From positions 1 to 36,748 of the forward strand of contig JABMNR010000027.1 of NCBI GenBank assembly GCA_013203465.1: a stretch of DNA of 36,748 bases, read 5' to 3'. The stretch's first letter is position 1; the number at the start of each line of letters is the position of its first letter. This DNA is from Alphaproteobacteria bacterium. Lineage in GTDB: Bacteria > Pseudomonadota > Alphaproteobacteria > Thalassobaculales > Thalassobaculaceae. The notes under the pieces were generated by a model that saw nothing but the letters and a program-made list of their open reading frames with translations, had not been told where the DNA came from and did not search any database. The position numbers were made by a program, and so were the translations under genes. Positions 12,174 to 17,022 of this stretch are shown here, piece by piece.

Positions 12174-13754
12174 ATGATCTATCGGTTCGAAGATACCGAG
12201 ATCGACACGGATCGATTTGAACTTCGGCAGGGTGGCAAGGCCCAGCAGGTCGAACCACAAGTCTTTGCCCTGATCGAACTTCTGGCCGCCAATCACGACC
12301 GCATGGTGTCGAAAGACGAACTCAATCAGCGGATCTGGGGTGGCCGTATCGTTTCGGACGCCGTGGTCAACAGCAGAATACGCACCGCGCGGCACGCGAT
12401 CGGCGATGATGGAAAGTCACAGCGGCTCATTAAAACCATACACAATCGCGGCTTCCGCTTCGTCGGTGAGGTGGTGGTGGAGAAAGGGCCGCTCACGGGC
12501 TTTGTGGCGACCCGCGACTCGCCCGCGAACGCGGACCCAACGGGCACGGCTGACGCCGATTTGCCGGGTGGAAAGCCGTCGATTGCCGTCTTGCCTTTCC
12601 AGATGTTGAGTGTCGGTGGCGGGTATGGCTTGCTTGCGGATGCGGTGGCGCATGAGGTGATTGTCGAGCTTTCGCGGCTACAGTGGTTGTTCGTGATCGC
12701 GCGCGGCTCGTCGTTCCGGTTTCGCGGACCGGACGTTGACTTCGAGACCGCCGGCAAGGTGCTTGGGGTACGGTACTTCCTGACCGGAAGTGTCGCGATT
12801 GACGGTCAACGAAGTGCGGTTACGGTCGAGCTCTCGGAGGCGGGAAGCCGTCAGGTCCTCTGGGCCGATCGCTTCGAAAGCGTGGTTGACGACCTTTTGG
12901 GGTTGCGCCTGACGATCGCCGCGAAGGTTGTCAACGCGATTGAGCTTCGTATCCCCTTGAGCGAGGCAAGCCGGGCGGCACGGCTTCCGACCGCGAACCT
13001 TGATGCGTGGTCGGCCTATCATCGCGGCCTGTGGCATATGTACCGGTTCAACGCGCACGATAACGAGATCGCCACACGGATGTTTTGCCGCGCCATCGAT
13101 GCTGATCGCGGCTTCGCGCGCGCCCATGCCGGTCTGTCGTTCACCCATTTCCAGAACGCGTTTGTCGGCTACGCCACCGACGCGGCGACCGAGCGCCGTC
13201 TGGCACAGGAACATGCGGAGCGGGGTATGGAGTTGGATTCGCTTGATCCGTTCGCCAACCTCACCATGGGGCGCGCCAACATGCTTGTTGGCGATCTGGG
13301 CGGCGCTATTTCCTGGTTCGACCGCAGTGTGCAGCTCAATCCGAACTACGCGATGGCCATCTACAACGGCGCGCTTGCCAACGCCATTCAGGGCGCCGGG
13401 CAGGAGAGCGAGCAGGGTGCCATGAAGGCGATGGCACTTAGTCCGGTCGATCCGTTGCACTATGCGATGCTCGCGACCCGGGCGCTGTCTCACATCGTTC
13501 GCGAGGATTATGCGGCGGCCATCGGATGGGCCGAGCGTGGGGCAAGGGCGCCAAACGCCCATGTGCACATTCGTATCATTGCGGCGCTTGCATGCGAGCT
13601 GGCAGGCGACCGGAAGACGGCTGAACACTGGGCGTCGGAGGTGCGGCGTCTTGACTCGCGGTTCCAGGTGGCGACCTTTTTCAAGGCGTTCCCTTTTCAT
13701 CAGGATGACACGCTCGCCCGTGCCAAGGCGGCATTGAAGCGCCTGGCGTTCTAA
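12174..13754 (+). CDS. Winged-helix (OmpR/CadC-type) regulator with TolB-like and TPR regions
   Basis: This 526-residue protein has three parts. Residues 1-100 are an OmpR/PhoB-type DNA-binding domain; the recognition region is around VVNSRIRTARHAIGDDG and the wing ends in IHNRGFRFVGEV. Residues 130-260 start with PSIAVLPFQ, the TolB/FlgO-like segment common in proteins annotated as CadC-family or adenylate-cyclase-like regulators. Residues 270-510 are helical and TPR-like. There is no receiver domain and no obvious membrane helix, so it is probably a soluble one-component regulator whose TPR part senses a protein or small ligand. An AGG-containing stretch precedes the ATG. The divergent methyltransferase and the repeats between them suggest local control. 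The signal is unknown. Confidence 0.82.
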   Translation: MIYRFEDTEIDTDRFELRQGGKAQQVEPQVFALIELLAANHDRMVSKDELNQRIWGGRIVSDAVVNSRIRTARHAIGDDGKSQRLIKTIHNRGFRFVGEVVVEKGPLTGFVATRDSPANADPTGTADADLPGGKPSIAVLPFQMLSVGGGYGLLADAVAHEVIVELSRLQWLFVIARGSSFRFRGPDVDFETAGKVLGVRYFLTGSVAIDGQRSAVTVELSEAGSRQVLWADRFESVVDDLLGLRLTIAAKVVNAIELRIPLSEASRAARLPTANLDAWSAYHRGLWHMYRFNAHDNEIATRMFCRAIDADRGFARAHAGLSFTHFQNAFVGYATDAATERRLAQEHAERGMELDSLDPFANLTMGRANMLVGDLGGAISWFDRSVQLNPNYAMAIYNGALANAIQGAGQESEQGAMKAMALSPVDPLHYAMLATRALSHIVREDYAAAIGWAERGARAPNAHVHIRIIAALACELAGDRKTAEHWASEVRRLDSRFQVATFFKAFPFHQDDTLARAKAALKRLAF

Positions 13755-13759
13755 GGCCA

Positions 13760-13788
13760 TTGACAGGGCGTTCCCGGCCGCGTAACGA
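13760..13788 (+). promoter_or_regulatory. Probable promoter of the metY leader
   Basis: A perfect TTGACA lies at 13760-13765, followed after 17 bp by TAACGA (13783-13788), a weak -10. Initiation about 6-7 nt further on would place the 5' end of the transcript at 13794-13795, exactly where the first stem of the SAM-II aptamer begins. The -10 match is poor, so the call rests on the -35 box and this placement. Confidence 0.5.
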
Positions 13789-13792
13789 TATT

Positions 13793-13850
13793 CCCGCGCC
13801 GATTTGAGCCTCCAGCTTGCGGGCGCGTTACAAATGCAGCTAAAGCGACG
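13793..13850 (+). ncRNA. SAM-II riboswitch aptamer
   Basis: The segment follows the SAM-II (metA motif) layout. P1 is CGCGCC (13795-13800) pairing with GGCGCG (13822-13827). The conserved GATTTG follows the 5' strand of P1, and the 3' tail ACAAATGCAGCTAAAG contains the conserved AAATG(C/T)AGCTAAA. TTGC (13817-13820) can pair with GCAG (13836-13839) to make the pseudoknot, and ATTTG/CAAAT are complementary, as in the crystallized Sargasso Sea metX aptamer. SAM-II elements are known from alphaproteobacterial methionine genes and bind S-adenosylmethionine. Here the aptamer precedes metY and is followed within about 10 nt by an intrinsic terminator, so SAM should lower metY expression. No covariance-model score was computed. 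Confidence 0.88.
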
Positions 13851-13860
13851 TTGGTTCGGA

Positions 13861-13888
13861 CCTCGCGCACGGCTGTGGCGGGGTTTTT
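13861..13888 (+). terminator. Intrinsic terminator directly after the SAM-II aptamer
   Basis: CCTCGC (13861-13866) pairs with GCGGGG (13878-13883), and inside it CAC (13868-13870) pairs with GTG (13875-13877) around the loop GGCT. The stem is followed at once by TTTTT (13884-13888). Placed 10 nt after the aptamer and 100 nt before the metY start, it is best read as the riboswitch expression platform for transcription attenuation. Confidence 0.75.
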
Positions 13889-13946
13889 CGTTTCCCGCCC
13901 AGTTTTCAGGCCCGTCTCTCTGACGTTTCGGCTGCGTTTACCCCAC

Positions 13947-13968
13947 ACGTCATCCCCGTGGATGGCGT
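13947..13968 (+). promoter_or_regulatory. Hairpin upstream of the metY ribosome binding site
   Basis: ACGTCATCC (13947-13955) pairs with GGATGGCGT (13960-13968) through nine pairs including one T-G wobble, around the loop CCGT. It ends about 10 nt before the GGAGAGA Shine-Dalgarno (13979-13985). It could tune translation or mRNA stability in the read-through transcript; the role is unproven. Confidence 0.4.
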
Positions 13969-13990
13969 CGGCTAAAACGGAGAGAGACCG

Positions 13991-15379: not shown

Positions 15380-15811
15380 GTGACGCAATCCGCGGCCGGC
15401 TACGCCGGTGACGTGAGCCCCAAAGAGGCGTTCGAGATTCTCAGCACCGACGCCGATGCGGTGCTGGTCGACTGCCGGACGACCCCGGAGTGGCAGTTCG
15501 TTGGCGTTCCCGACCTGTCACCGCTCGGCAAGGAGGCGGTGCTGTTGTCCTGGCAGGTCTATCCGGCGATGGAGGTTCAAGCCGACTTCGCCGAGCAGGT
15601 GAAGACGCATGGCGTGACGCCGGATCAGCCGGTGCTGTTGCTGTGCCGATCGGGCGTGCGGTCGAAAGCGGCGGCGATCGCCCTCACACAGGCGGGCTTT
15701 CACAAGGCGTTCAACGTCGCCGAGGGCTTCGAGGGCGACAAGGACGGCGAGCAGCATCGCGGGCGAGCCGGCGGCTGGAAGGCCGCCAACTTGCCCTGGG
15801 TCCAGAAGTAA
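15380..15811 (+). CDS. Rhodanese-like sulfurtransferase
   Basis: This is a 143-residue single rhodanese domain. The active-site loop CRSGVRS begins at Cys89, which should carry the persulfide, and the domain opens with VLVDCRTTPEW, a standard rhodanese element. The start is a GTG at 15380 with AGAGGAGG ending about 6 nt upstream. It sits between metY and metZ, with metZ starting only 5 nt after its stop, so it is almost certainly cotranscribed with metZ. The inferred role is handling or delivering sulfane sulfur to the homocysteine-forming sulfhydrylases, or sulfide detoxification. The position supports this but nothing in the sequence proves it. Confidence 0.86.
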   Translation: MTQSAAGYAGDVSPKEAFEILSTDADAVLVDCRTTPEWQFVGVPDLSPLGKEAVLLSWQVYPAMEVQADFAEQVKTHGVTPDQPVLLLCRSGVRSKAAAIALTQAGFHKAFNVAEGFEGDKDGEQHRGRAGGWKAANLPWVQK

Positions 15812-15816
15812 CGGCC

Positions 15817-17022
15817 ATGACGCACAAAACCTATGACGCGGCGGTCGAGGCGGATTGGGCGCTGGCGACCAAGCTGGTGCGCGGCGGTTTGCGACGCAGC
15901 GCCTTCGGCGAGACCAGCGAGGCGTTGTTCCTCAACTCGGGCTTTGTCTACGACGACGCCGAGGAGGCCGAGGCCCGGTTCAAGGGTGAGGCGGCGGGGT
16001 ACATGTACTCGCGTTACGGCAACCCGACCATCGCCATGCTGGAGGAGCGCTTGGCGTTGTTGGAGGGGGCCGAAGATTGCTTCGCGACGGCGACCGGCAT
16101 GGCCGGTGTGTTCACCGCCCTGATGGCGTCGACCAAGGCCGGCGATCACGTCATCGCCTCGCGGGCGCTGTTCGGGTCGTGCCATCACATCGTCACCCAA
16201 TTGCTGCCGCGTTGGGGGGTCGAGACCACCCTGGTCGACGGTCCCGACCTCGATCAGTGGCAGGCGGCCCTGCGCCCGGAGACGGTGGCGGCGTTCATCG
16301 AGACACCGGCCAATCCGACCTTGGAGTTGATCGACATCGCCGCCGTCGCCGAGATCGTGCATCAAAGCGGCGCTCGGCTGATCGTCGACAACGTGTTCGC
16401 CACGCCGCTGCTGCAGCGGCCGCTGGCGCTGGGCGCCGACGTGGTGGTGTACAGCGCCACCAAGCACATCGACGGCCAGGGGCGGTGCCTCGGTGGCGCG
16501 ATCCTGTCGGACCGTGCCTTCATCCGCGAGAAGGTTGAGCCGCTGATGCGCCATACCGGCCCGTCGCTCAGCCCATTCAACGCCTGGGTCATGCTCAAAG
16601 GGCTTGAGACCCTGGAGCTTCGGGTGACGCGGCACTGCGAGAACGCCGCATTTGTCGCCGCGCGACTGGAACACTCAACGAAAATCAAGCACGTGCTGTA
16701 CCCCGGTCTCGACAGTTTCCCGCAACGCGACCTCGCCCGCCGTCAGATGACCGGCGGGTCAAGTCTGGTGTCGTTCGAGCTCGACGGCGGCAAGGCCGAG
16801 GCGTTCCGGCTGCTGAACGCGCTCACGCTGATCGACATCTCCAACAATCTCGGCGACGCCAAGAGCCTGATCACCCACCCGACCACCACCACCCACAGGG
16901 CCATGGGTGCCGAGGGAAGAGCGGCGATCGGGGTCGGCGATGGTTTGGTGCGGGTGTCGGTCGGCCTGGAGGACAAGCACGACATCGCGGCCGATCTGGA
17001 GCAGGCCCTGACGGCGGTGTAG
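15817..17022 (+). CDS. metZ: O-succinylhomoserine sulfhydrylase
   Basis: This is a 401-residue PLP enzyme of the Cys/Met metabolism family. K216 in YSATKHIDGQG is the PLP lysine, and KHIDGQGR is characteristic of MetZ-type O-succinylhomoserine sulfhydrylases, which form homocysteine from O-succinylhomoserine and sulfide. The frame is open upstream to 15490, but the ATG at 15817, 5 nt after the rhodanese stop, gives the family's normal length. With metY it would give the cell two homocysteine routes using differently acylated homoserine. No second riboswitch is visible before it, so it depends on the metY promoter or an internal promoter. Confidence 0.9.
   Translation: MTHKTYDAAVEADWALATKLVRGGLRRSAFGETSEALFLNSGFVYDDAEEAEARFKGEAAGYMYSRYGNPTIAMLEERLALLEGAEDCFATATGMAGVFTALMASTKAGDHVIASRALFGSCHHIVTQLLPRWGVETTLVDGPDLDQWQAALRPETVAAFIETPANPTLELIDIAAVAEIVHQSGARLIVDNVFATPLLQRPLALGADVVVYSATKHIDGQGRCLGGAILSDRAFIREKVEPLMRHTGPSLSPFNAWVMLKGLETLELRVTRHCENAAFVAARLEHSTKIKHVLYPGLDSFPQRDLARRQMTGGSSLVSFELDGGKAEAFRLLNALTLIDISNNLGDAKSLITHPTTTTHRAMGAEGRAAIGVGDGLVRVSVGLEDKHDIAADLEQALTAV

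Follow-up and report, generated by a model that had tools for sequence, protein, structure and literature searches.

Does the small aptamer in the metY leader control only whether transcription runs on into the gene, or also whether the resulting message is translated? The locus lies within a stretch of 36,748 nucleotides that was analysed as a whole (hereafter the window), and a first-pass annotation of this DNA had described the leader as a compact terminator switch. The aptamer class, the terminator, the promoter and metY all held good, but the description is incomplete: one strand of the second hairpin is conserved and complements the aptamer, and the leader is therefore probably more than a compact terminator switch. 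The reading favored here, with moderate confidence, is that one SAM-II aptamer serves two outputs on metY-rhodanese-metZ, namely a terminator and a translational switch of the Shine-Dalgarno (SD) sequence that works by strand exchange. Table 1 presents the features of the locus.

Table 1. Features of the metY leader and of the genes that follow it (window coordinates).
Feature	Position	Strand	Basis
-35 element TTGACA, with weak -10 TAACGAT at 13783-13789	13760..13765	+	sequence; conserved TTGAC
SAM-II aptamer	13786..13864	+	full RF00521 match, 45.7 bits, E 2.4e-7
P1 stem CGCGCC/GGCGCG, 21-nt loop with P2 5' strand	13795..13827	+	cmscan alignment
Aptamer 3' strand: CAAAU (P2a), AGCUAAA, GCGA tail	13831..13848	+	cmscan alignment
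Predicted antiterminator GCGA 13845-13848 / UCGC 13863-13866, GGU/ACC inside	13845..13866	+	covariation, nine leaders
Intrinsic terminator ACCUCGC-G-CAC-GGCU-GUG-GCGGGGU + U tract	13860..13888	+	fold -16.1 kcal/mol, z -3.36
SD-sequestering hairpin, outer arms 13914-13921 GUCUCUCU / 13981-13988 AGAGAGAC	13914..13988	+	-35.5 kcal/mol, z -2.81
Switch strand CGUUUCGGCUGCGUUU	13924..13939	+	complementary to aptamer 13832-13847, 15/16 pairs
SD-proximal mimic of aptamer strand GGCUAAAACGGAG; SD GGAG 13979-13982	13970..13982	+	conserved GCU(A)AAACGGAG block
metY, O-acetylhomoserine sulfhydrylase, 438 aa	13991..15307	+	TIGR01326 610 bits, cut-off 495
Rhodanese-domain protein, second gene of likely operon	15380..15811	+	PF00581 40.1 bits
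metZ, O-succinylhomoserine sulfhydrylase, third gene	15817..17022	+	TIGR01325 569 bits, cut-off 510

The SAM-II aptamer and its genes

The Rfam covariance model RF00521 (SAM_alpha) was matched by cmscan from end to end (positions 1-79 of 79) and above its gathering score (45.7 against 36 bits), which confirms the SAM-II class; this is the only SAM-II match in the window's genome. In the alignment, P1 is formed by CGCGCC (13795-13800) and GGCGCG (13822-13827), and the P2a pseudoknot by AUUUG (13802-13806) and CAAAU (13831-13835). The first-pass annotation had taken this second pair for a compensatory change that supported a working fold. The pairing is present, but it agrees with the Rfam consensus and is thus no special compensatory change. 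The 3' strand of the aptamer carries AGCUAAA, the conserved ligand-binding segment, and beyond GCUAAA the P2b helix reads GCC/GAC with one mismatch, or GC/GC, according to register. Judged by its sequence, 13786-13864 is a genuine and typical SAM-II aptamer, which would be expected to bind SAM.

Of the working fold, P1 and P2a stand, and A13848 may weaken P2b, depending on register: relatives with an identical aptamer 5' strand have a G at the equivalent position, giving GCC/GGC in place of GCC/GAC. An aptamer so weakened that the window's genome responds poorly to SAM is nevertheless highly improbable, given that the P2b register is uncertain, that the GC/GC pairs beside GCUAAA are intact, that the aptamer scores similarly to those of relatives, and that A13848 has a matching U13863 as its partner in the predicted antiterminator.

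Downstream of the aptamer lie the methionine/SAM genes metY, whose earlier assignment is upheld by a TIGR01326 score above cut-off, and metZ, whose ATG was assigned by inspection; together with the rhodanese gene they look like a single operon. On the upstream side, 12174-13754 codes for a protein of the CadC/HilA-like regulator type, 526 aa long, in which a winged-helix domain (Trans_reg_C) occupies the N terminus and TPR matches weakly.

The window's family, which alone represents its order in the comparison set, was sampled with 36 genomes from 12 genera, and SAM-II is present in 30 of these. Two near-complete 1.5-Mb genomes of genus g12 (G011 and G020), which stand beside 5-Mb members, are without SAM-II and metY; genome reduction within this genus is strong. 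Other SAM-II loci of the family take several forms. Five of them (L111-L115, from G005, G015, G027, G031, and G001) have true tandem aptamers separated by about 115-145 nt, with a terminator after the first and the SD close to the second, which is a known arrangement (PMC9481103); L113-L115 are located upstream of metZ-like genes. In L023 and L026 (G031 and G012), an aptamer is found about 100 nt upstream of a CysG-type siroheme synthase, a SAM-using step of sulfite reduction (domains TP_methylase, NAD_binding_7, and CysG_dimeriser in L023), and L117 and L014 have a start that resembles these two. An unusual target is seen in L119 (G004), where 40-50 nt separate the aptamer from the aminomethyltransferase-like GCV_T gene (PF01571, 162 bits) downstream of it.

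Promoter, terminator, and predicted antiterminator

For comparison, metY leaders were gathered both by aptamer strand and by MetY protein: 24 from the family and one, L031, from an unclassified alphaproteobacterial MAG whose MetY (83%) is the closest in the named set. The promoter position proposed earlier is well placed, with TTGACA 35 nt upstream of P1 and TTGAC 34-39 nt upstream of it in 24 of 25 related leaders, the sole leader lacking it being at a contig end. A consensus scan called no sigma-70 site at the window leader because the -10 element is poor. The terminator that had been noted about 10 nt after the aptamer was likewise recovered: the segment 13858-13890 folds with the energy and z given in Table 1, a value that no shuffle equalled, and is completed by a U5 tract at 13884-13888. 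It is absent from the list of a strict terminator consensus scan, probably because its stem is bulged. A promoter just before P1 and terminators are already typical of SAM-II, according to Corbino et al. 2005 (PMC1273637), so that up to the terminator the leader appears ordinary.

When each leader was folded up to the 5' arm of its terminator, this arm paired with the aptamer 3' tail (AGCGG/CCGCU) in most terminator-bearing leaders, and pairing probabilities of 0.16-0.94 were obtained for relatives with a standard terminator. In the nine-leader alignment, 81.8% of cells of the antiterminator helix are paired, two pairs show double changes, and the covariation is 0.189 against 0.078 in shuffles, a value that one shuffle in 500 equalled; with the partner shifted by 1-3 columns, the score falls. 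The window has a double change of its own, A13848-U13863 replacing G-C. In the window the automatic finder picked a rival hairpin, and the antiterminator given for it is predicted from the comparison of related leaders and from covariation. An antiterminator drawn from the aptamer 5' half, as in the global fold of the window, was rejected because most relatives use the 3' tail instead.

Since the aptamer 3' tail pairs with the terminator arm and does so with covariation, the terminator would be opposed by the very bases that SAM binding would engage. A terminator with a competing antiterminator built on aptamer bases, as predicted here, is what defines an intrinsic-terminator riboswitch, and the pair appears to work as transcriptional OFF switches usually do. 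Without SAM, the tail GCGA would pair with the terminator arm UCGC and the polymerase would read through; with SAM bound, the tail would be locked in the P2 pseudoknot, allowing the terminator to form. Plentiful SAM would thus turn the metY-rhodanese-metZ operon off, a polarity that fits the known role of SAM-II (PMC1273637). The terminator 3' arm GGCGGG is followed by the U tract and then by CCCGCC, which makes an alternative hairpin available in the read-through RNA (13877-13899); leaders of g3 and g12 likewise have CCGCC/CCCGC after the U tract.

A downstream strand complementary to the aptamer

Between terminator and ATG, nine leaders of genera g1, g3, g5, and g12 share only two substantial conserved blocks. 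The first, GGCUG-(A/G)UUUGG, is the reverse complement of the aptamer 3' strand (CAAAUGCAGC). The second, GCU(A)AAACGGAG, stands beside the ATG, contains the SD (GCUAAA-CGGAG), and resembles the aptamer strand (GCUAAA-GCGG); in genus g10, GCUAAAGAGG occurs in both the aptamer strand and the SD-proximal block. Owing to this resemblance, one downstream strand can pair with either of them.

In the window, both blocks fall within the second hairpin, whose presence ahead of the SD the first-pass annotation had correctly reported (Table 1). The switch strand 13924-13939 is more complementary to aptamer 13832-13847 than expected (z -4.5, p 0.0007, 10,000 dinucleotide shuffles), and among the 19-mers of the whole aptamer the best-pairing one coincides with this target to within one nucleotide. 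The aptamer 3' strand is the common target of antiterminator and switch strand, as found by leader comparison. In the fold of the SD hairpin, the switch strand uses its first 11 nt to pair (10 of 11) with the SD-proximal copy at 13969-13979. A leader peptide was considered and rejected on sequence grounds: the 10-codon frame near 13957 runs into the start of metY, and aligned g12 leaders have no in-frame upstream ATG.

The GCUAAA directly before the SD might instead mark a separate, degenerate SAM aptamer of SAM-II or SAM-V type, the more so as true tandem SAM-II leaders precede other genes of the family. This is hardly credible for the window, however, as 13880-14020 matches no Rfam SAM family, even at E 10, where only chance matches appeared, and contains neither a second AUUUG/CAAAU pseudoknot nor a CUUGC segment. 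A SAM-V aptamer over the SD gave no match at E up to 10 in this interval, and the single SAM-II match in the entire genome sets the leader apart from tandem SAM-II.

The preferred two-output reading adds to the terminator a second control, which would act on translation in the read-through mRNA. In the ON state, the switch strand would pair with aptamer 13832-13847, leaving the aptamer open and the SD free; in the OFF state, the aptamer would hold SAM and the switch strand would pair with the mimic 13969-13979, hiding the SD. The sequence data establish the identity of the aptamer, the terminator hairpin, and the complementarity with its conservation; ligand binding, the order of folding, and the effect of the switch strand on SD access are inferred. 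The broader idea that the SD region evolved into a mimic of the ligand strand, with one downstream strand choosing between the real strand and its mimic and thereby controlling both termination and translation, has in our view a slightly less than even chance.

Several relatives changed both partners. Genus g10 has alterations in the aptamer as well as in the downstream strand: in L163, AUGCAGCUAAAGAGGG pairs with CCCUCUUUGGCUGCGU across 16 nt, and in L159, ACGGCUAAAGA pairs with UCUUUAGCCGU, with compensatory changes from G-C to A-U and from A-U to G-C. L157 and L158 show a change from A-U to U-A, and in g8 the aptamer GUGCUGC is accompanied by the downstream strand CAGCAUUU. The core helix has an A-G mismatch in g6, g7 (3 of 4), g9, and L031, and L161 has lost the usual switch-strand site. 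Complementarity with z below -3 was found in 15 of 24 family metY leaders, at the switch-strand site in 14 of the 15; these leaders, like those counted below, are not independent, because relatives share ancestry. An extended test gave a mean z of -2.90 over the 25 metY leaders, 18 of which lie below -2, against a mean of -0.12 (sd 0.99, minimum -2.58) in 35 SAM-II leaders of other families; the strand to test was chosen after inspection of the sequences, a bias that these control leaders and the element shuffles limit without removing it. In this extended test, with a 15-nt tail added, the complementarity of the window reaches p 0.06 only.

Aptamers and elements were also swapped between genera, in a double-centered test that removes composition effects and that was run on two choices of one member per genus, overlapping only in the window and L031. 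Own pairs had an advantage over swapped pairs of 3.6 kcal/mol (p 0.0014) in one choice and of 2.6 kcal/mol (p 0.0099) in the other, a coevolution signal that leans mostly on g8 and g10; with the tail only, coevolution of aptamer and element was not significant in this test, and the window pair matches no better than swapped pairs (residual +2.3). In equilibrium folding, 21 of 25 leaders expose the SD more when the aptamer is free; taken as a stand-alone signal, SD hiding is in many leaders no stronger than in shuffles (mean rank 0.29). In the window itself, SD exposure is 0.22 with or without the aptamer and aptamer-switch pairing is almost nil, owing to the high stability of the local SD hairpin, and switching there would consequently have to be kinetic. 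On these data, translational control is a hypothesis that has support at the level of the family and less of it for the exact sequence of the window.

The last results suit a simpler account, in which the leader would be a SAM-II terminator switch and nothing more: the downstream hairpin would act as a constitutive brake or reflect base composition, and the complementarity would be inherited and take no part in switching. The terminator alone would explain repression, the window model shows no SD change, and SD hiding exceeds shuffles only modestly. We nonetheless consider this account unlikely, since the complementarity is conserved, with compensatory changes and a coevolution signal, and since some genera keep the element yet show no convincing terminator. 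Indeed, no convincing U-tract terminator was found in leaders of g7, g8, and g9, where the SD hairpin would hence be the sole platform. In L148 and L149 of g9, the aptamer tail CGGAAG can pair with a distant downstream CUUCCG, and no terminator is seen where CUUCCG stands, though one would be expected there.

The same complementarity could also serve other ends. The switch strand might be a one-way latch that, once the polymerase has read through, opens the aptamer and keeps SAM from binding, much as a linker downstream of SAM-II in the Pelagibacter SAM-II/SAM-V leader blocks the SAM response in vitro (PMC11508383). Alternatively, the short leader RNA that termination yields at high SAM might target this strand in trans; small RNAs derived from terminated SAM-II leaders do build up in Sinorhizobium meliloti (PMC9373788). 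Both variants are decidedly unlikely: the SD-proximal mimic and the shared arm are better suited to reversible exchange, and if the strand were paired in trans, high SAM would free the SD, opposite to the polarity of the terminator.

The proposed strand exchange in the light of known riboswitches

If the two-output reading is true, the leader would show how a terminator-only switch can gain a translational platform, or survive on one, as three genera of the family (g7, g8, and g9) appear to have this platform only. The short distances and strands of the window leader suit direct mutational tests. In the literature searched, which included few subscription papers, no description of a one-aptamer, strand-exchange SAM-II arrangement was found.

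The nearest relatives each share part of the design. The Agrobacterium metA SAM-II leader (PMC1273637) has the same succession of an aptamer with a promoter near P1, an intrinsic terminator, and a methionine gene, with the same OFF polarity, but the available part of that source describes terminators and no aptamer-complementary downstream strand. The metA leader of S. meliloti (PMC9373788) also combines one aptamer, a terminator, and SD-dependent translation in a single leader; there, however, the SD is sequestered in P2 of the aptamer and SAM control of the terminator is not predicted, whereas the SD of the window lies about 130 nt downstream and is joined to the aptamer by a complementary strand. 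Among other classes, c-di-GMP Bc1 (PMC11218506) is a single-aptamer riboswitch with two levels of control, transcription and translation, but it is incoherent and shows little ligand response. Finally, the tandem SAM-II/SAM-V and tandem SAM-II "bi-mechanism" riboswitches (PMC9481103, PMC11508383) place a terminator and then SD control on one transcript, as proposed here, but with two aptamers where the window leader has one detectable. Two-level control of SAM genes is thus known from serial leaders with two aptamers, and one small aptamer with strand exchange would be a simpler way to achieve it.
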